Shown here one piece after another: positions 5,135 through 63,927 of a DNA stretch of 64,000 nucleotides. The stretch comes from Mycolicibacterium mucogenicum DSM 44124 (GTDB lineage Bacteria; Actinomycetota; Actinomycetes; Mycobacteriales; Mycobacteriaceae). Both the position numbers and the translations under genes were made by a program. The stretch is taken from assembly GCF_005670685.2 (NCBI RefSeq), contig NZ_CP062008.1:4340001-4404000 (forward strand). Reading direction: 5' to 3'. The stretch's first letter is position 1. Each line of letters opens with the position of its first letter. The notes under the pieces are model-generated. The model was given only the letters and a program-made list of their open reading frames with translations. It was not told the origin of the DNA and searched no databases.

Positions 5135-6262
5135 TCACGTCGTCGGCAGCGTCACGTCCAGCCGGAATCCGCCGGGCACGTGGGCAGCCGACACCTGGCC
5201 GCCGTGCGCTTCGACGATGCCCCGCACGATGGCCAGACCGATGCCGGCGCCCGAGCCGTCGGCCTCCGGGGTGCGGGCCTGAGTACCGCGCCACCCCATG
5301 TCGAACATGCGCCCGAGATCGTGCGACTGCACGCCGGGCCCCTGGTCCAGCACGGTGAGCACGATCCGGTCGCCGTCGAGGTGGTGGGCCGAGACCTGGA
5401 TCTCGGAATCCTCCGGCGCATGCCGGATGCTGTTGACCAGCAGGTTCGCCACCACGCGGGACAGCTCCCCGGGGTCGGCGTACAGCACCTGATCGGTCAT
5501 TTCCGCGTGCGTGATGGTGATGCCGCGGGTGGCCGCGAGGGCCTGCATGTCGGACACGACATCGGAGACGAGGTCCAGGAGAACCACCGGCTCCTTGCTG
5601 AGCTTGAGCATGCCGCTCTGGATCTTGGACAACTCGAACAGCCCGTCAACCATGCCGTTGACGGCGTCCACCTGGTCGCGGATCTGCCGGATGTAGTCGG
5701 CCGGCTCGTCGACCACGCCTTCCTCGAGCGCCTCGGCCATCGCCCGCATCCCGGCCAGCGGTGTCCGCAGATCATGCGAAACCCAGGCCACCAGCTGACG
5801 GCGTGACGCGTCGAGCTGCTCGACCTCGGCGCGGGCCGCCGCCAGCTGTGCGGACGACTGCGCGAGCTGACTGGACAGTTCGGCGAACTCCCGCGAACTG
5901 TCGACGTCCGCTGTGACGACCTCGCCACTGCCGATCTGCCGAGCCGCGCGTTGCAGCCGGGCCAGCGAACGTCGCAGCCGTCGCAGCATGAACCCGGCGG
6001 CCAGGCCCGCCATGAGCGCCGAGATGGCCAGCACCGCCAGCAGCACCTGCAGGTCGTGCGACGACAGGTACATCTCGATCGAGATCGCCACCGTCGAGGC
6101 GACGATCGCGACGATCGTCGCGCAGATCAGGACCGACACCTGCGTCCCGATGGATCCGCGCCGATTGAGCTGCATGACGAGGACGGCCGCACCCGTGGCC
6201 ACGGACGTGCAGATCAGGGCCGTCACCGCGATGATGACGAGGTCGGCCGCACCGAGGATCAT
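5135..6262 (-). CDS. Membrane sensor histidine kinase
   Basis: A 375-residue kinase. Three membrane segments lie near residues 8-30, 42-60 and 72-93, followed by a HAMP-like linker with coiled-coil character. The phospho-acceptor motif VSHDLRTPL has His163, and the ATPase region has N, G1 (DQGPGV) and G2 (GSGAGIGLAI) boxes. The ATG at 6262 overlaps the stop of the upstream response-regulator gene as ATGA, so the two are translationally coupled. With almost no extracytoplasmic loop it probably senses a membrane or intramembrane signal. The divergent DM13-DoxX operon is the natural candidate target. Confidence 0.87.
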   Translation of the reverse strand: MILGAADLVIIAVTALICTSVATGAAVLVMQLNRRGSIGTQVSVLICATIVAIVASTVAISIEMYLSSHDLQVLLAVLAISALMAGLAAGFMLRRLRRSLARLQRAARQIGSGEVVTADVDSSREFAELSSQLAQSSAQLAAARAEVEQLDASRRQLVAWVSHDLRTPLAGMRAMAEALEEGVVDEPADYIRQIRDQVDAVNGMVDGLFELSKIQSGMLKLSKEPVVLLDLVSDVVSDMQALAATRGITITHAEMTDQVLYADPGELSRVVANLLVNSIRHAPEDSEIQVSAHHLDGDRIVLTVLDQGPGVQSHDLGRMFDMGWRGTQARTPEADGSGAGIGLAIVRGIVEAHGGQVSAAHVPGGFRLDVTLPTT

Positions 6263-52552: not shown

Positions 52553-53977
52553 TGTGATGTATCGGGACATCGGTGACAGTTCTGCATCAGCACATCGGTG
52601 ACAGTTGGTGTATCAGGACATCGGTAACGTTTCCTCTGGTTTGGGGTGTGAGCCGCGGGGCTTTCCGTTGCCGACGTAGGTCACTCCTGGTGCGGCCCGG
52701 GTGTGCTCGATGAGGATCTCGCCGTCGAGGTCGGCGACGATGATTTTGTCGCCGTCGGTAGCGACCAAGACCTCTTGGAGGCCGTATCGGCCCCGACTTT
52801 GTAGATGACCCCGGCGAGCATGAATGTGCCGGCGGTGGTCAGCGTGCGGATGCTGGTGCTGGCCGGTAGCGCTGGTACGGGCTGAAGCTGCTTGATTGTG
52901 GCCGCGATGAGCAACGGCGCGTCGGGCTGCGGGCGGGGCGGGGCGGCCTTGGCGGTCGCTTCCCACGCGGTCTGCGGGGTGACGCGGCCGGGGAGACCTT
53001 GGTGGGGTCGTTCGGTGTTGTAGATGTGGTCGAATTTGTCGACCTGGGCTTGTAGTTCGGCGAGGCTCTCGGCGAGGGGCTGTTGGTCGAGGTAGCGGAA
53101 CAGGGTTTGGTGGAATCGTTCGTTTTTGCCCTGGGTGGTCGGCTTGTAGGGCTTGCCGGTGATCGCTTCGGTTCCCAGCGCCGCAACGTGTTTGACGAGT
53201 TTGCCGACCAATCCACGGCGCGAAAGGTTCAGCGCCGCCCCGTTGTCAGTGAGTAGTCGTTGGGGTACCCCGTGAGCGGCCACGGCCTTGTCGAAGACGG
53301 CGATCGCGGCTTCGGCGGTCTCGCTCCGGGCAACGTGCGAGGCCACGGCATAGCGGGAGTGATCATCAATGAGCTGGAAGATCACGCACGTACGTCCACC
53401 GACCAGGACGTACTCGGTGGCATCGAGTTGCCAGCAGGCGTTGGGGGCGGGATAGACGAACCGTCGCCACGCCGAGCGGGGTTTCTTCTTCGGCTCCTTA
53501 CGGGCCACTCCAGCTTGGCGGAAGACGCGGGCCAGGGCTGCTGTGGAGGGGACCTGGTCCAGGCCCATCGCGCGCATCTTGTCGTGCACACTGATCGGCC
53601 CGCAGTCCAAACCGGAGGATTCCAGAGCCTTACGCACCGCGATGGCCTGCTCCTTGACCTCATCACCAAGTGTCGACGGACTCGACTTCGGTCGCCGGGT
53701 CCTCGGTTCAAGCACCGCAGCCTGACCATCTGTCACGGCCCGTTTACGTAACGCGTAGAACGACTTTCGAGAAATTCCATGCTCGACGCAGAACGTCGAG
53801 ACCGCCCCACGAGGCGCGTCATCGGGCCACTGCGCGATCGCCAGACGGACACGAGGATCGATGGGTTCATTGACAGCCACCGCCCGAGCCTGGTGGCAGA
53901 AGTGTCACCACCAAGACCACCGGAACTGTCACCGATGTCCTGATGCAGAACTGTCACCGATGTCCTGAGACATAACA
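52553..53977 (-). mobile_element. Complete IS481-family insertion sequence with terminal inverted repeats
   Basis: A 1425-bp element that begins TGT and ends ACA, as IS481 elements do. The termini pair over about 50 bp with few mismatches; the inner part is ACATCGGTGACAGTT repeated. The left end carries three copies (52567, 52592 and a diverged copy at 52618), 25-26 bp apart, and the right end two good copies plus a weaker one. These are likely transposase-binding sites. Exact 15-bp duplications flank it. It is inserted in the former divergent promoter between dnaE2 and the BlaI-like gene. It carries one transposase gene with a frameshift near its end. Confidence 0.9.
52613..53880 (-). pseudogene. 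IS481-family transposase, C-terminus frameshifted
   Basis: A DDE transposase read from ATG 53880. An N-terminal helix-turn-helix region (about 10-60, with FCVEHGISRKSFYALRKRA) precedes a catalytic core with Asp153 (LDATEYV), Asp212 (LLTDNGAALN) and Glu254 (GKNERFHQTL), all present. The main frame ends at 52681 after 399 residues. After Val362 (codon 52795-52797) the family-like sequence RYGLQEVLVATDGDKIIV continues in another frame down to a stop at 52613. One base appears lost near the CCCC run at 52791-52794. The core is intact, so it may still work, or the shift may be a sequencing error or programmed; annotated as broken on current evidence. Confidence 0.75.
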
Positions 53978-56305: not shown

Positions 56306-56327
56306 TACCTACCCGATCGGGTAGGTA
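56306..56327. promoter_or_regulatory. Palindromic operator before the iron alcohol dehydrogenase
   Basis: A perfect 22-bp palindrome, whose core CTACCCGATCGGGTAG is at 56309-56324. The right arm is used again in a second inverted pair, GGTAGGT-AGCG-ACCTACC (56320-56337), so three half-sites alternate over about 32 bp. It lies 80-100 nt before the dehydrogenase ATG. A 16-bp sequence of the same form occurs at 60938-60953. Confidence 0.75.
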
Positions 56328-56405
56328 GCGACCTACCCACGTGCACATTGGTCCTGACGGCGGCGCGCCGTAGGCTGGGCGTGTTACCTGGATCACGGAT
56401 GAGGA

Positions 56406-57626
56406 ATGGGTCTGGTGAGACTCGACGTGATGGCGCCCGCACAGATCGCGGCGACGACGGCGGCGACGGCCGCGCCGACGCGGCTGTTGAAGTTCCATGC
56501 CCCGGAGATCGTGTTCGGTATCGACTCGATGGCGGAGGCTGCGCACGCCGCCGTCCGCCTGGGCGGGCTGCGGCCCATGCTGGTCACCGACCCCGGGCTG
56601 ATCGAGGCCGGCTGGGTGGCCGAGCTGGTGGGGCACCTGCGCGCCCAGTGCGTCGAGGCGCACGTGTGGAGCGCGCTGACCCCGAACCCCAAGGACCACG
56701 AGGTAACGGCCGGCCACGAGTTCTACCGGTCGCACGGCTGCGATGTGCTCATTGCCTTGGGCGGCGGCTCGGTGATCGACGCGGCCAAAGGCATCGCGAT
56801 CCTGGCGGCCAACGGCGGCCACATCCTCGACTACGCCGGAGTCGACAAGGCGACGGCGCCGATCCCGCCCCTCGTGGTGCTGCCGTCCACGTCGGGTACC
56901 GGCGCCGACGTCTCTCAGTTCTGCATCGTCACCGACACGACCCACAACACCAAGATCACCATCCTGGGCCGTGCCCTGGTCCCCGACATCACCGTCATCG
57001 ACCCCCGACTGCTCACCACCATGCCCGAATGGCTCAACGCGGCAACAGGTCTGGATGCGCTGACGCACGGCATCGAGGCGTTCGTGTCGCTCGGGCACAA
57101 CCAGCTGACCGACCACCACGCATTGCGGTCGGTTGTGATGGTCACCGAAAACCTGGTCACGACCATCGAGCGACCGCAGGACATGCCGGCCCGCGTGCTG
57201 ATGGCGCAAGCCGCGCTGGAAGCGGGTCTCGCGTTCACCAACGCCATCCTGGGCGCCGCGCACGCCATGAGCCACCAAGTGGGTGGGCTCCTCGACTTGC
57301 CGCACGGCGTCATCAACGGCGTGCTGCTGCCCCATGTGGTGCGGTTCAACGCCGAGGCCGACCCGGCTCCTTTCGCCACCATCGCCGCCTGCCTCGGGAT
57401 CGCCGACAAGCGCGCTCCAGAGCTGGAATCCGCACTGGCACTTGCCGACCGACTCCAAGAGCTGGCCAGACAGGTGGGCGTGCCACGCGGGCTCGCCGAG
57501 TTGGGAGTGCGTGACGCCGACGTTCCGGTGTTGGCCCACAACGCCCTTCAGGATGCGTGCCTGACCACCAATCCCCGCCCTATCGACGATGCACAGCTGC
57601 GCGCGCTGTTCCGGGCTGCGCTATGA
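56406..57626 (+). CDS. Iron-containing alcohol dehydrogenase (1,3-propanediol-dehydrogenase-like)
   Basis: A 406-residue group III (iron) alcohol dehydrogenase. GGGSVIDAAKGIAI is the nucleotide-binding segment, PSTSGTGADVSQF the substrate/nucleotide loop, TGLDALTHGIEAFVS and GAAHAMSHQVGGLLDLPHG carry the metal histidines. It matches the DhaT group and fits the M. smegmatis MSMEG_6239 1,3-propanediol dehydrogenase, which I remember next to the same kinase-regulator pair. ATG at 56406; downstream starts at 56415 and 56430 are possible. The stop overlaps the kinase start as ATGA. Confidence 0.86.
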   Translation: MGLVRLDVMAPAQIAATTAATAAPTRLLKFHAPEIVFGIDSMAEAAHAAVRLGGLRPMLVTDPGLIEAGWVAELVGHLRAQCVEAHVWSALTPNPKDHEVTAGHEFYRSHGCDVLIALGGGSVIDAAKGIAILAANGGHILDYAGVDKATAPIPPLVVLPSTSGTGADVSQFCIVTDTTHNTKITILGRALVPDITVIDPRLLTTMPEWLNAATGLDALTHGIEAFVSLGHNQLTDHHALRSVVMVTENLVTTIERPQDMPARVLMAQAALEAGLAFTNAILGAAHAMSHQVGGLLDLPHGVINGVLLPHVVRFNAEADPAPFATIAACLGIADKRAPELESALALADRLQELARQVGVPRGLAELGVRDADVPVLAHNALQDACLTTNPRPIDDAQLRALFRAAL

Positions 57627-59005
57627 CAACCCTGCCCGGCAACCCGGTCGTGCCGCGACGCGCGGCCGCCCCGGATCTGGACCAGCTCACCGGCGTGCGT
57701 TCCGGCAAAGGCACGTTCTATCCCGAGTTCCGGGTTGCCGCGCAACGCACCGAACGGGTGGTCGCAGCGCTCGACGCCATCTCACGCGCTCTGGTGCAGA
57801 CCGTCAACGGCCCCGAGAATCTGGTGCGTGCCGTCGCCGAGGCGGCCCGCACTCATCTCGGTGCCGAATGGGTGCTGTTGGCGCTGGCCGACGGCGCCCT
57901 GCCGGAGGCACGACCCCGTCACCTCATCCTCGACGCGGAGGGGCACGCATACTCCTTCGAAGGCCTGTCGGGCACCAAACATCCGGTAGCGCACCTGCCG
58001 GATGCCGTCCTGAACCGGCTCAACGACGTCCTTCGGGGTCAGCTCGCCCAGTTCCGGGTACCCGTCATCGAAAACCACCACTCGCACGTCCCGATCGAAC
58101 TCGACGGCGGGGTCGTCGGCGCATTCGCGGCCTGGACGCCACCGCACCGGCTGCTCGACGGTATCGACGAGGCGGTGATGCGCATCCTCGCCAGTCAGAC
58201 CGCGGTGGCGCTACAGAACTGTGAACTGTTCCAGCGCTCGCAAACCCTGCTGGCCGAGTCCGAGGCACGCAATGCGCAGCTGCTGGCGACGCAGCGCGAA
58301 CTCGGTGCGGCACAACGCCATCAGGTACTGGACTCCGAGCGGCACCGCATTGCCCGGGAACTGCACGACAGCGTCACACAGACCGTCCTGTCGGCCGGCA
58401 TGCAGATCGAGGTGTGCCGAAGTGAGGTCGAATCACGTTCCGGTCCAACAGGTCTGGCCGAACGTCTGGACACCGCCAAAGCACTGACCCGATCGGCGAT
58501 CGACCAGCTACGGTCGGCCATCTATGCGCTCAACCATTCCTCCGACGCCGACCGCTCCAGCCTCCCCGAGCTGCTCGAACAGCTCGCCACGGTGCACATG
58601 CCGAAAGACCTGCGGGTGACGCTGCGGGTCGACGGGGATGTCGCCGAATTGCCCAGTGCTGTCGAACGGAGCCTGCTTCGGATCGCCGGCGAGGCACTGT
58701 TCAACACCGCGATGCACGGCCGCGCCTCACGGGCCATCGTGCGATTGAGCTACCGCGCCGCCGGGGTCACCCTGTCGGTGTCCGACGACGGCATCGGTGA
58801 CCCGGACAAACTCCGGATCCGGCTCCAACTCGCCGATGTCGCGGACCTCGACGGACACCATCGCGGGCTGGCCAACATGCTGGCACGGTGCCGCGAATAC
58901 GGTGGCACCTTCACCGTCGGCCGCTCGCGTATCGGGGGCGTGCGGGTTGTCGCCACCATCCCGCGGGATCCACAAGAAGCTCCGGGCGAAGGAGTCGTGC
59001 CATGA
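57623..59005 (+). CDS. GAF-domain histidine kinase, NarL-type partner (MnoS-like)
   Basis: A 460-residue soluble kinase. The N-terminal half contains a GAF-like sensor (about 47-200), then a coiled coil (205-235), a HisKA_3 dimerisation motif SERHRIARELHDSVTQTVL with His248, and a HATPase domain. In that domain the N-box region reads FNTAMHGRAS and the G-boxes are VSDDGIGD and HHRGLANML. It lacks membrane segments, so it senses a cytoplasmic signal such as the alcohol or aldehyde. It is coupled to both neighbours by 4-bp overlaps. Order and domain make-up resemble MnoS of M. smegmatis (methanol and 1,3-propanediol use); orthology is inferred. Confidence 0.86.
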   Translation: MTTLPGNPVVPRRAAAPDLDQLTGVRSGKGTFYPEFRVAAQRTERVVAALDAISRALVQTVNGPENLVRAVAEAARTHLGAEWVLLALADGALPEARPRHLILDAEGHAYSFEGLSGTKHPVAHLPDAVLNRLNDVLRGQLAQFRVPVIENHHSHVPIELDGGVVGAFAAWTPPHRLLDGIDEAVMRILASQTAVALQNCELFQRSQTLLAESEARNAQLLATQRELGAAQRHQVLDSERHRIARELHDSVTQTVLSAGMQIEVCRSEVESRSGPTGLAERLDTAKALTRSAIDQLRSAIYALNHSSDADRSSLPELLEQLATVHMPKDLRVTLRVDGDVAELPSAVERSLLRIAGEALFNTAMHGRASRAIVRLSYRAAGVTLSVSDDGIGDPDKLRIRLQLADVADLDGHHRGLANMLARCREYGGTFTVGRSRIGGVRVVATIPRDPQEAPGEGVVP

Positions 59006-59658
59006 CCGTTGACACCAGCACCGGGACCATCCGCCTTGCACTGGTGGACGACCACGCCATCCTTCGCCAGGGGCTGCGGTCATTGCTGGAACGCGAAGAC
59101 GACCTCGTGGTGGTCGGCGAGGCCTCCAGCGAGCCGGAAGCCGTGGCCATGGTCGCAGCGACGCAACCCGATGTGGTGCTGGTCGACCTCAAACTCTCCG
59201 CGGGGTCGGACTTCGAGGGATTATCGTTGTGCACCAAGCTTTCCGGCGCCCACCCCGACCTCGGCCTGCTCGTGCTGACCACGTTCCTCGATGAGGATCT
59301 GGTGGTACGTGCGGTGCACGCCGGAGCGCGTGGCTACGTGGTCAAGGACGTCGACACCACAGAACTGGTGCGGGCGATCCGTGCCATCTCCGCCGGACAG
59401 AGCGCGTTCGACTCGCGCAGCGCCGCTGCCGTGGTCCGCTCGCTCAGCGGCCGCGGCGATCAACGCGAGAAGCTCACCGACCGGGAGATCGAAGTGTTAC
59501 GGCTGCTCGCGGCGGGGCTGTCGAACCACAAGATCGGTGAGCAGCTGTACATCTCGGCGACCACCGCCAAGTTCCACGTCAGCAACATCATGCGCAAGCT
59601 CGACGTCAGCCGGCGCGCCGAGGCCGTGTACGCGGCCAGTAAACGCGGACTGATCTAG
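59002..59658 (+). CDS. NarL-family response regulator (MnoR-like)
   Basis: A 218-residue response regulator. The receiver has acidic residues Asp16-Asp17 and the phospho-acceptor Asp62 in VLVDLKLS, with Lys in the VVKDVD loop. The LuxR helix-turn-helix LTDREIEVLRLLAAGLSNHKIGEQLYISATTAKFHVSNIMRKL (shown in its parts) is near 155-215. It is coupled to the kinase. The palindromes at 56306 and 60938 are the natural binding sites. The gene is followed by a strong terminator. Confidence 0.9.
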   Translation: MTVDTSTGTIRLALVDDHAILRQGLRSLLEREDDLVVVGEASSEPEAVAMVAATQPDVVLVDLKLSAGSDFEGLSLCTKLSGAHPDLGLLVLTTFLDEDLVVRAVHAGARGYVVKDVDTTELVRAIRAISAGQSAFDSRSAAAVVRSLSGRGDQREKLTDREIEVLRLLAAGLSNHKIGEQLYISATTAKFHVSNIMRKLDVSRRAEAVYAASKRGLI

Positions 59659-59685
59659 GCCGACGATCTTCGTCGGCCTAGATCA
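59651..59685 (+). terminator. Strong terminator after the alcohol-sensing response regulator
   Basis: A perfect 16-bp stem with a 3-nt loop: TGATCTAGGCCGACGA (59651-59666) pairs with TCGTCGGCCTAGATCA (59670-59685). The stop codon TAG lies inside the left arm. It may stop transcription from both sides, since the zinc dehydrogenase gene ends 36 nt further on. Confidence 0.8.
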
Positions 59686-59720
59686 GCTGGTGTGGATGTG
59701 CGGGTTGACCCTATGAGCCG

Positions 59721-60788
59721 CTAGGCATTCCGGTAATCGATGACGATGCGGCCGTCGATCTGTCCATGTTCCATCCGCGCGAACACATCATTGATCTCGT
59801 CGAGGCGCGCGCTGGTGACGGTCGGCTTGATCAGGCCGCGTGCGTAGAAGTCCAGTGCCTCGGCCATGTCTTGCCGCGTTCCGACAATCGACCCGCGGAT
59901 GGTGAGTCCCTTGAGGACGATGTCGAAGATCGGGGCCGGGAAGTCGCCCGGCGGAAGTCCGTTGAACACGATGGTGCCACCGCGACGGGCCAGTGCGATC
60001 GCCTGACCGAACGCCTGCGGGTGCACGGCGGTGACCAGGACACCATGGACGCCTCCCGTGGCCTGCTGCACCGACTCCACGACGTCGGTGGTACGGGCGT
60101 TGATGGCGACCTCGGCGCCGAGGCGGGTGGCGAGCGCGAGCTTGGCGTCGTCGACATCGATCGCCACCACGCGAAGCCCCATCGCGCGGGCGTACTGAAC
60201 TGCGATGTGTCCCAGCCCGCCGATGCCGGAGATCGCCACCCACTGGCCGGGCCGGGTGTCGGTGACCTTGAGGCCCTTGTACACGGTGACGCCGGCGCAC
60301 AGGATCGGCGCGATCTCCAGTGGGTCGGCGCCGTCGGGGATCCGCGCGGCATAGTCCGCGTTGACCAGCATGTAGGTGCCGAAGCTTCCGTTGACGGAAT
60401 ATCCACCGTTGCGCTGACTTTCGCACAAGGTCTCCCAGCCCGTCCGGCAGTATTCGCAGCGGCCGCAGGCCGACCACAGCCAGGCGTTGCCAACCTTGTC
60501 TCCGACCGCCAGGTCGACCACGCCCTCGCCGAGTGCTACGACCGTTCCGTAGCCTTCATGCCCCGGTACGAACGGCGGCTGCGGTTTCACCGGCCAATCA
60601 CCGTGCGCCGCATGTAGATCCGTGTGGCAGACACCGGATGTCTCGAGCTTGACCAGGGCTTCGCCATAGCCTGGCGTCGGCAGTTGCAGGTCGTGCACCT
60701 GCAGCGGCATGCCGAAGTCGGTGACGACCGCGGCCCGCATGGTGTCGGCGTGTCCCGCCACAGTTTCAGTGGCCAGTGTCTGTGTCAT
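59721..60788 (-). CDS. Zinc alcohol dehydrogenase (AdhP-like)
   Basis: A 355-residue zinc-dependent alcohol dehydrogenase of the AdhP/AdhA group. Catalytic zinc ligands are in SGVCHTDLHAAHG and GHEGYGTV; structural zinc cysteines are in CGRCEYCRTGWETLC; the Rossmann turn is ISGIGGLGHIAVQYA. It should oxidise primary alcohols with NAD. ATG at 60788; upstream in-frame residues to 60860 are discounted. It is convergent with the response-regulator gene and divergent from the permease gene. The gap carries the second copy of the operator, so it probably belongs to the same regulon. Confidence 0.88.
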   Translation of the reverse strand: MTQTLATETVAGHADTMRAAVVTDFGMPLQVHDLQLPTPGYGEALVKLETSGVCHTDLHAAHGDWPVKPQPPFVPGHEGYGTVVALGEGVVDLAVGDKVGNAWLWSACGRCEYCRTGWETLCESQRNGGYSVNGSFGTYMLVNADYAARIPDGADPLEIAPILCAGVTVYKGLKVTDTRPGQWVAISGIGGLGHIAVQYARAMGLRVVAIDVDDAKLALATRLGAEVAINARTTDVVESVQQATGGVHGVLVTAVHPQAFGQAIALARRGGTIVFNGLPPGDFPAPIFDIVLKGLTIRGSIVGTRQDMAEALDFYARGLIKPTVTSARLDEINDVFARMEHGQIDGRIVIDYRNA

Positions 60789-60894
60789 CGATTCACTCCA
60801 TTCGTGAGAATTGTTGTGGGAAAGGTTTTGAGGTTCTGATTGGCGCAAAGCTGATAGCACACAACGCTATTGACAGTGACGTGCCGCCACATGC

Positions 60895-60953
60895 CCCGAT
60901 CGGGCCGAGTACCGGACCTGCCCGGGCGGGCCGGGTACTGCCCAATCGGGCAG
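60895..60953. promoter_or_regulatory. Operator region between the zinc dehydrogenase and the permease
   Basis: CCCGATCGGG (60895-60904) and CTGCCCAATCGGGCAG (60938-60953) flank a third looser half-site pair near 60917-60932. The second has the form C-T-R-C-C-C-R-A-T-C-G-G-G-Y-A-G, identical to the core at 56309-56324 at 13 of 16 bases. It lies 107-165 nt from the dehydrogenase start and 121-179 nt from the permease start. The rest of the 285-nt gap shows nothing else clear. Confidence 0.65.
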
Positions 60954-61073
60954 GGCCGTCGGGCGCCGACCGAACGCTCCCGGACCGACGAAGCCGTTCC
61001 GCAAAGGCGCCACCCCGACGCCACGCACCCGCCATGATGGGTGCCGTAACCAGACACGGCGAAGGTGGATCAC

Positions 61074-62620: not shown

Positions 62621-62636
62621 TTGTGATGGATCACAA
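62621..62636. promoter_or_regulatory. Palindrome overlapping the start of the PucR-type gene
   Basis: TTGTGATGGATCACAA has perfect 7-bp arms around two bases. It contains the annotated ATG. It resembles a CRP site but its spacer between TGTGA and TCACA is 4, not 6. Either an operator or chance. Confidence 0.4.
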
Positions 62637-63927
62637 TCGGCACGTGTCGTCCCCCTCCCAACTGCCGCCCATCCCGGCGGACGCACCGTTGCGGAAGGTG
62701 ATCGAGGACCGGATCGACGAGATCGCCACGACGCTGCTCCACGAGGCGGTCCAATCCATCGAGTGGCCATCCCCCATGCCCCTCGAGCATTTCGACGGCG
62801 AGGTCACCCCGTACATCATCAGCGGATTTCTGTACGGGCTTGACCTGATCACCGAAGGGCGCAGGGTGACGCGTGCCGAGGCGGCCACCTTTGTCCTGCC
62901 GGTCGCAGAACGGCACGCCGAAGACGGGATTCCACTGCCGTTCCTGTTCACCGCACTGCACGCGGGCGTCCGCAAGCTGTGGGAGATCGTGCTGGAATCG
63001 GCCACCGAGGGCGACTCGGAAACCATCGCCGCGCTGGGCATCTACCTCGCCGACCTCACCGGGACCATCAGCGTGCTGCTGACCGAGGTCTACCAGGACT
63101 CGGATTTTGCGCTGCGGGCCACCACTCGCCGGCAGTTGAGCGCCGTCTGCGCCGGCCTCATCGACGGCGACCCCGGCGTCGACGTGATCGCCAAGCAGGT
63201 CGGCATCAAGCTCAGCGATCACTACGACGTGTTGGCGATCCGGGTGGACGTCGACGAACCGCGTACCACCCATGAGACATTGGCGGCGCGCCGGCGGTTA
63301 CGGCTGGCCAACCAAGTGTTCTACGGGCGCGGCGCCGGTGAAATCCTCAACACGTTCGACGGCCACACGGGCGTCATCTTGCTGCCCGCACCCATCGTGG
63401 AACCGCGCGACGACTCGGCCATCGCCAGCCACCTCAGCACGCTGATCGCCGCGCTCAGCGAGCGACTCGATGGCGCGATCTACGCCGCATATCATCCCGA
63501 CGCCACATTGGCCGCCATTCCCGCGGCGGTCTCGGAAGCCGACGAAATCACCCGCCTGGCAAGGCAACTGAAACGGGAACCTGGCATCTATCAACTGGCC
63601 GATGTCCTTTTCGAGTACCAGTCGACGCGCCCGGGGCCGGCGCGTGACCTGCTCGCCCGCCACATCGCGCCGCTGAGGGATCACCCAGGGTTACTCCAGG
63701 CGCTCCAAGCGCACCTACAGCACGGTGCTGACCGGAAGGCCGCCGCGGCAGAGCTTTTCATTCATCCGAACACCCTGACCTACCGCTTGCGGCGCATCCA
63801 GGACATCACCGGATACGACCCCACCGATCCCCATCAATCACGATTGCTCGCCGCGGCGATGACCATCTACGCCATCGACCATGCGGGTACGGCGGTCGCC
63901 GCCATGGCCCCCGGCGATCCCGACTAG
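62626..63927 (+). CDS. PucR/CdaR-family transcriptional regulator
   Basis: A 433-residue regulator with the helix-turn-helix near the C-terminus: RKAAAAELFIHPNTLTYRLRRIQDITGYDPTDPHQSRLLAAAMTIY (quoted in parts). The N-terminal half resembles CdaR-like sensor regions, with LPVAERHAEDGIPLPFLFTALHAGVRKL. ATG at 62626 is used; GTG at 62647 is an alternative, and neither has a clear ribosome-binding site. A palindrome TTGTGATGGATCACAA overlaps the ATG, which would make autoregulation possible. It follows the permease and its terminator, so it is likely independently transcribed. Its target is probably the permease or the alcohol block. Confidence 0.8.
   Translation: MDHNRHVSSPSQLPPIPADAPLRKVIEDRIDEIATTLLHEAVQSIEWPSPMPLEHFDGEVTPYIISGFLYGLDLITEGRRVTRAEAATFVLPVAERHAEDGIPLPFLFTALHAGVRKLWEIVLESATEGDSETIAALGIYLADLTGTISVLLTEVYQDSDFALRATTRRQLSAVCAGLIDGDPGVDVIAKQVGIKLSDHYDVLAIRVDVDEPRTTHETLAARRRLRLANQVFYGRGAGEILNTFDGHTGVILLPAPIVEPRDDSAIASHLSTLIAALSERLDGAIYAAYHPDATLAAIPAAVSEADEITRLARQLKREPGIYQLADVLFEYQSTRPGPARDLLARHIAPLRDHPGLLQALQAHLQHGADRKAAAAELFIHPNTLTYRLRRIQDITGYDPTDPHQSRLLAAAMTIYAIDHAGTAVAAMAPGDPD

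Follow-up and report, generated by a model that had tools for sequence, protein, structure and literature searches.

Described alcohol-utilization systems

The best described counterpart of the locus analysed here is the MnoSR/mno system of Mycolicibacterium smegmatis (MSMEG_6236, 6238; 6239-6242). MnoR binds a palindrome in the mno promoter, 137 bp upstream of mno, and deletion of mnoS/R abolishes both the expression of mno and 1,3-propanediol dehydrogenase and growth on methanol or 1,3-propanediol (PMC11303327). The dissociation constant of MnoR is 2.37 µM for the perfect site and 11.7 µM, i.e. five times weaker, for a site with two mismatches. A probe with four mismatches exhibited no affinity by thermophoresis, and in gel shifts probes carrying two to four mismatches were bound only when polyA took the place of salmon-sperm DNA as competitor (PMC11303327). 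The same paper finds the site in a single copy and infers control of a single operon by MnoR; neither MSMEG_6235 nor MSMEG_6237 is mentioned in its text. NCBIfam defines a Mad set, formed by MadB (ATPase), MadC (VWA protein), MadS and MadR.

Organization of the M. mucogenicum locus

The window, i.e. the whole stretch of 64,000 nucleotides of Mycolicibacterium mucogenicum DSM 44124 DNA that was analysed, hosts an alcohol-utilization block made of the following features (window coordinates):

56306..56327, no strand: operator 1, perfect 22-bp palindrome TACCTACCCGATCGGGTAGGTA, predicted operator located 5' of the iron-dehydrogenase operon
56371..56376, plus strand: TAGGCT, predicted -10 element for the iron-dehydrogenase operon, with 54 bp to the centre of operator 1
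56406..57626, plus strand: iron-containing alcohol dehydrogenase (Pfam match)
57623..59005, plus strand: MadS family sensor histidine kinase (NF047786, 635.5 bits, cut-off 500)
59002..59658, plus strand: MadR family (NarL type) response regulator, proposed site binder (NF047785, 357.1 bits, cut-off 300)
59650..59686, no strand: terminator-like perfect hairpin of 17 bp, located where the regulator and zinc-dehydrogenase genes converge (-31.9 kcal/mol, z -6.1)
59721..60788, minus strand: zinc-dependent alcohol dehydrogenase, AdhP type (NF006940, 385.8 bits, cut-off 344)
60862..60872, minus strand: CAATAGCGTTG box with TAGCGT as predicted -10 element for the zinc dehydrogenase
60892..60907, no strand: array element C (CCCGATCGGG core), differing from the 20-base consensus at 8 positions
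60918..60933, no strand: array element B, at 20 bp from element A, differing from the 20-base consensus at 4 positions
60938..60953, no strand: element A of the array, identical to site 2 of the preliminary description, 4 mismatches to the 20-base consensus

Start and stop codons overlap among the iron dehydrogenase, kinase and regulator genes, which therefore probably form one operon. Kinase and regulator, both encoded between the two sites, are identified as MadS and MadR by the curated NCBIfam models, and gene order and kind make them the counterparts of M. smegmatis MnoS and MnoR. In both species the genes for a NarL-type regulator and its kinase adjoin that of an iron dehydrogenase of the 1,3-propanediol type, a palindromic site is located upstream of the operon (a likeness in position), and a role in alcohol use is assigned. 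The window differs in lacking mno, in having the operator directly before the iron dehydrogenase, and in featuring a second promoter, with an operator array, that would serve the zinc dehydrogenase. In many relatives iron dehydrogenase, kinase and regulator are found without mno in the fetched stretch; mno is thus a frequent partner, and not a part, of the two-component system.

Several genes of the known systems are missing. Nothing in the genome exceeds the TIGR04266 cut-off for mno, the best match being the iron dehydrogenase of the window (159 bits vs 625), which itself matches no NCBIfam equivalog above its cut-off. Likewise, no gene genome-wide reaches the cut-off of the mftM (mycofactocin methyltransferase) family (best 43 bits vs 200), and mftM is absent from this locus. 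The mycofactocin enzyme MftC is present in the genome (661 bits, cut-off 265). Neither MadB nor MadC was found adjoining the operon, and a DUF2784 gene sits upstream instead. In relatives MadC is found above cut-off, and the one MadB tested scores just under it (461.7 vs 475). Close to the block, an integrase-like (transposase) reading frame, judged from its translation, spans positions 52681-53880 on the minus strand.

Operator 1 and its conservation

The preliminary description had signalled two cores fitting one consensus, one at each end of the block. Both are found exactly, at 56309-56324 and 60938-60953, and the former extends to the 22-bp palindrome listed above. Conservation of operator 1 was evaluated in 80 regulator-bearing loci, fetched out of 335 relatives found. 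Iron dehydrogenase and kinase genes adjoin the regulator in all 80 loci. An operator with at most 2 mismatches, located at most 400 bp 5' of the iron dehydrogenase, is found in 55 of the 80 relatives, and none is found within the same limits in the other 25. Promoter layout is similarly maintained, as TANNNT occurs at offset 65-67 in 52 of these 55 relatives, within 1 bp of the 54-bp spacing from the operator centre seen in the window.

Longer upstream sequences were available for 18 regions, partly overlapping the 80 loci (same species or records) and hence not an independent set. An operator scoring more than 24 bits precedes the iron dehydrogenase in 8 of them, and a site of at least 12 bits precedes an mno-like gene in 11; sites of either type are found in 15, and neither in 3. 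The mno-like genes were identified by similarity (59-98% identity) to the C-terminal piece of the L024 protein, which scores 580.7 bits against TIGR04266, and not each by the family model. The expectation, formulated in the preliminary description, that the motif should mark NDMA methanol dehydrogenase genes is thus borne out in relatives, and finds no object in this genome, which has no mno above cut-off.

Additional elements were observed around operator 1. An extra half site, CTACCC (56333-56338), follows the operator and pairs with the right operator arm as a further inverted repeat (GGTAGGT-AGCG-ACCTACC); relatives show similar half sites at the same place. Immediately 3' of the iron-dehydrogenase -10 element, positions 56382-56397 host the element TGTTACCTGGATCACG, which we take to belong to the CRP/GlxR-like family. 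The pattern GTWA..TCACA, composed after inspecting the leaders, is matched in the leaders of 53 of the 55 relatives. This element may mediate carbon-source repression of the iron-dehydrogenase operon.

Distribution of the motif and of the regulator

Exact matches to the consensus of the preliminary description are restricted, in the 6.10-Mb genome, to the two sites. Allowing at most 2 mismatches, no excess is seen in the whole genome (26 forward and 27 reverse matches vs 25 and 27 for a reversed control); the motif alone could thus not carry the claim, and the scan has not been used as evidence. The 11 matches found in the window at up to 3 mismatches (shuffle mean 5.3) are similarly unremarkable, 10 of 100 shuffles reaching the same number. 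Two other near matches (L003 and L004; 1 mismatch, outside the window) were discarded, as they fall within NUDIX hydrolase-like and acyl-CoA dehydrogenase-like frames, named from reading their translations.

The motif tracks with the regulator gene. The regulator was found in 20 of 148 genomes of the genus, and the 20-base operator ACCTRCCCGATCGGGYAGGT, at no more than 1 mismatch, in 16 of 148. Fifteen of the 16 operator genomes also have the regulator (hypergeometric p 2e-15, uncorrected for kinship). The remaining one, G008, is a genome of 70% completeness, whose operator adjoins an iron dehydrogenase. Five genomes have the regulator and no operator at this threshold; the reversed control pattern is found in 1 of 148 genomes. 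Operator places are 18 in all, and each of the 17 examined neighbours either an iron dehydrogenase gene or an mno-like one. The NarL-type regulator, pointed to in the preliminary description as the natural binder, is upheld as the predicted one by this co-occurrence, and by the binding of MnoR to a palindrome upstream of mno reported in PMC11303327.

The array upstream of the zinc dehydrogenase

The second site is an imperfect palindrome with centre AATC. It had been described incompletely, since it is one of the three tandem elements denominated A, B and C in the list above. Because the earlier consensus came from both sites, site 2 was scored by a matrix derived from site 1 of the relatives alone. 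The resulting score, 9.3 bits, is reached at none of 89,788 background positions in the same genome; when the 288-bp intergenic region was dinucleotide-shuffled 2000 times, 2 shuffles reached it. An exact CAATAGCGTTG box, oriented toward the zinc dehydrogenase, is located 65 bp from site 2, and the corresponding distance is 65 bp in L019 and 64 bp in L021; the stretch compared for L020 ended before its site. The centres of A, B and C are placed approximately 76, 56 and 30 bp, respectively, from the -10 element of the zinc dehydrogenase. Operator 1 and element B share the -10 spacing, which suggests that one activator acts alike at both. Elements, spacing and box are all retained in the four zinc-dehydrogenase loci of the clade, and the array is the best conserved intergenic segment among the window, L019 and L021 (0.72 of columns).

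Probable descent of the promoter from mftM

In most mycobacterial relatives the gene converging on the regulator is mftM, as established by the NF041255 model in the three relatives tested (362, 379 and 376 bits, cut-off 200). Palindromic elements, with CAATAGCGTTG after them, are found upstream of mftM. Of 42 stretches taken from this side of mftM, 27 have the box with no more than 2 mismatches and at the expected distance from the first element, 41-43 bp in 5 loci and 64-66 bp in 22. In the other 15 no such box is found at the expected distance; some stretches are cut short.

A promoter HMM was built from 17 mftM promoters, picked for having the box, leaving out the clade of the window. Searched over 359 kb, it matches positions 60860-60959 of the window at E=2.3e-12, with values between 2.2e-15 and 8.9e-13 for the three sister loci; operator-1 regions come next, at 0.016 and 0.02. 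A second HMM, derived from all 42 unselected mftM stretches, matches the window at 1.6e-15, and at 1e-6 upon removal of the box. The promoter of about 100 bp preceding the zinc dehydrogenase of the window can therefore be assigned, by sequence comparison, to the mftM promoter class. It shares tandem elements and the CAATAGCGTTG box with the mftM promoters located beside madR in relatives, and differs from them in fronting the zinc dehydrogenase and not mftM. The preliminary description had missed that site 2 belongs to this inherited promoter.

That the promoter was brought in by the zinc dehydrogenase could be rejected. A close orthologue of the enzyme is found in 26 of 148 genomes, and 24 of the 25 other loci have been examined (L187 was dropped, its upstream sequence being too short). 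None of the 24 has an operator (best score -5.6 bits) or a box (at least 3 mismatches), and the promoter thus fits mftM and not the zinc dehydrogenase. In L151 and L184 (genomes G009 and G098; more distant regulators, of 65% and 63% identity, respectively) the zinc dehydrogenase is found a few kb from an mno-like gene, with neither operator nor box before it. These two loci feature a second, looser association of the zinc dehydrogenase with an mno-like gene.

A tree based on iron dehydrogenase and regulator sequences was obtained by a quick method. It includes the window, the 80 named loci, L151 and L152, leaves out L135-L150, and is labelled for mftM or zinc dehydrogenase according to matches inside the fetched locus. 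The four zinc-dehydrogenase loci make up one group (support 94), nested in a set of 16 loci (support 99) whose other members are 10 mftM loci and 2 loci lacking both genes. As mftM is also found at the locus in Rhodococcus, the zinc dehydrogenase is to be regarded as the newcomer. In the clade of the window, mno, madB, madC and mftM are all missing at the locus, and the zinc dehydrogenase stands behind an mftM-type promoter. Plausibly, the promoter persisted after the gene it had served was lost, and was taken over by a different alcohol-metabolism gene.

Regulatory model and alternative explanations

On the whole, the block is probably a derived mad/mno alcohol-utilization locus, in which MadR controls operator 1 and the array, the latter being the inherited mftM promoter, and the permease gene lying beyond the array is a bystander. 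According to this model MadS, as supposed from MnoS/MnoR of M. smegmatis, would sense an alcohol-related signal and phosphorylate MadR. By binding operator 1, 54 bp 5' of the -10 element, MadR would activate the iron dehydrogenase-madS-madR operon and, since madR is part of it, also itself. MadR would in addition bind the three-element array, and activate the zinc dehydrogenase; the cooperative binding of the phosphorylated regulator to elements A to C is an assumption. Array and -10 box would together represent the ancestral mftM promoter. Of the regulon of five genes envisaged in the preliminary description, iron dehydrogenase, kinase, regulator and zinc dehydrogenase are retained as predicted members, and the permease is set aside.

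A single MadR regulon that takes in the permease, site 2 serving both divergent genes and thereby coupling alcohol oxidation to the transport of short-chain acids, would be in keeping with the 123 bp separating site 2 from the permease start, with the same place being held by the permease in L019 and L021, and with the divergent mycofactocin genes found on that side of the array in some relatives. In M. llatzerense (L020), however, the permease lies 5' of the iron dehydrogenase; the site, by contrast, remains by the zinc dehydrogenase. Moreover, the permease is found in 36 genomes and only that of the window is among the 20 regulator genomes, and no operator-like site was detected at the 29 examined of the 35 other permease loci. 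The site-2 promoter is directed away from the permease, no TANNNT occurs between site 2 and the permease start, and the permease side is less conserved than the array (0.53 vs 0.72 of columns in the window, L019 and L021). Hence this explanation is quite improbable, the proposed link to acid transport is not supported, and the permease is best seen as a mere neighbour of the alcohol block. A gene for a PucR-type regulator (62632-63927) follows the permease, whose own regulator it may encode; at the 29 other permease loci inspected no such gene was seen.

Alternatively, operator 1 could be a MadR site and the array (60892-60953) either the target of another regulator or an unresponsive relic of the mftM promoter, the zinc dehydrogenase being controlled otherwise. 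The degeneration of A, B and C (4, 4 and 8 mismatches, respectively) counts against MadR binding to the array, as does the lack of MnoR binding to a probe with 4 mismatches in the published thermophoresis assays (PMC11303327). Yet all four loci of the clade retain the elements, their spacing and the box, no other intergenic segment is as well conserved as the array in the three loci compared, and similar elements precede mftM beside madR in mycobacteria. A relic, or a site for a different protein, is consequently rather unlikely. That the two sites are unrelated GC-rich palindromes, occurring by chance in a GC-rich genome, would agree with the lack of a genome-wide excess of the consensus at up to 2 mismatches, but is scarcely credible in view of the conservation of operator 1, of the co-occurrence with the regulator, of the rarity of the site-2 score in background and shuffled sequences, and of the match to the promoter HMM.

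Mycofactocin genes as candidate targets

The derivation of the array from mftM has a broader implication, toward which we incline with some reserve. MadR/MnoR may also govern mycofactocin finishing via the multi-element mftM promoter, perhaps together with adjoining mft genes in some actinobacteria, so that one alcohol sensor would set both the dehydrogenases and their cofactor; in the clade of the window the promoter would have gone to the zinc dehydrogenase after mftM loss. The mftM gene is thus predicted to be controlled by MadR/MnoR; if so, the reach of a regulator with a single reported target would extend to the cofactor of the enzymes it controls. The change of gene under a retained promoter can also be traced, the promoter having survived its original gene and standing now before a different one of alcohol metabolism. 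No papers treating both mycofactocin and MnoR were found in the open-licence literature.

MSMEG_6237 of M. smegmatis is presumably mftM, as its annotation and gene number also suggest. It is annotated as a SAM-dependent methyltransferase, and is numbered between mnoR (6236) and mnoS (6238) (PMC7174638). In that paper (Tables 3 and 5), change values of -6.9 for MSMEG_6237 and -24 to -28 for MSMEG_6240-6242 are given upon zur deletion, -5.4 and -4.6 to -6.4 upon smtB deletion, -4.6 and -8.4 to -8.7 in the double deletion, and -11.2 and -3.0 to -4.6 with zinc. With TPEN, MSMEG_6237 goes up 7.4-fold and no change is listed there for the mno operon; no Zur site is marked for MSMEG_6237 or MSMEG_6240-6242 (PMC7174638). 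A shared MnoR site would explain the joint fall of MSMEG_6237 and MSMEG_6240-6242, and offers a reason for MSMEG_6237 falling with the mno operon in zinc-regulator mutants; the rise of MSMEG_6237 with TPEN speaks against it.

No operator within 3 mismatches was found before the mycofactocin cluster of the M. mucogenicum genome. A MadR operator between mftM and mftB is not claimed for Rhodococcus, where best scores are mostly below 0. Clear sites on that side are found in two Antrihabitans loci (L066, 20.8 bits; L086, 8.1 bits) and in Tomitella (L085, 17.7 bits). In Antrihabitans stalagmiti (L066:7651-8199) the 20.8-bit site is located between mftM and a divergent mftB (TIGR03967, 108 bits, cut-off 33), and the mycofactocin genes of this species may thus be MadR-controlled.
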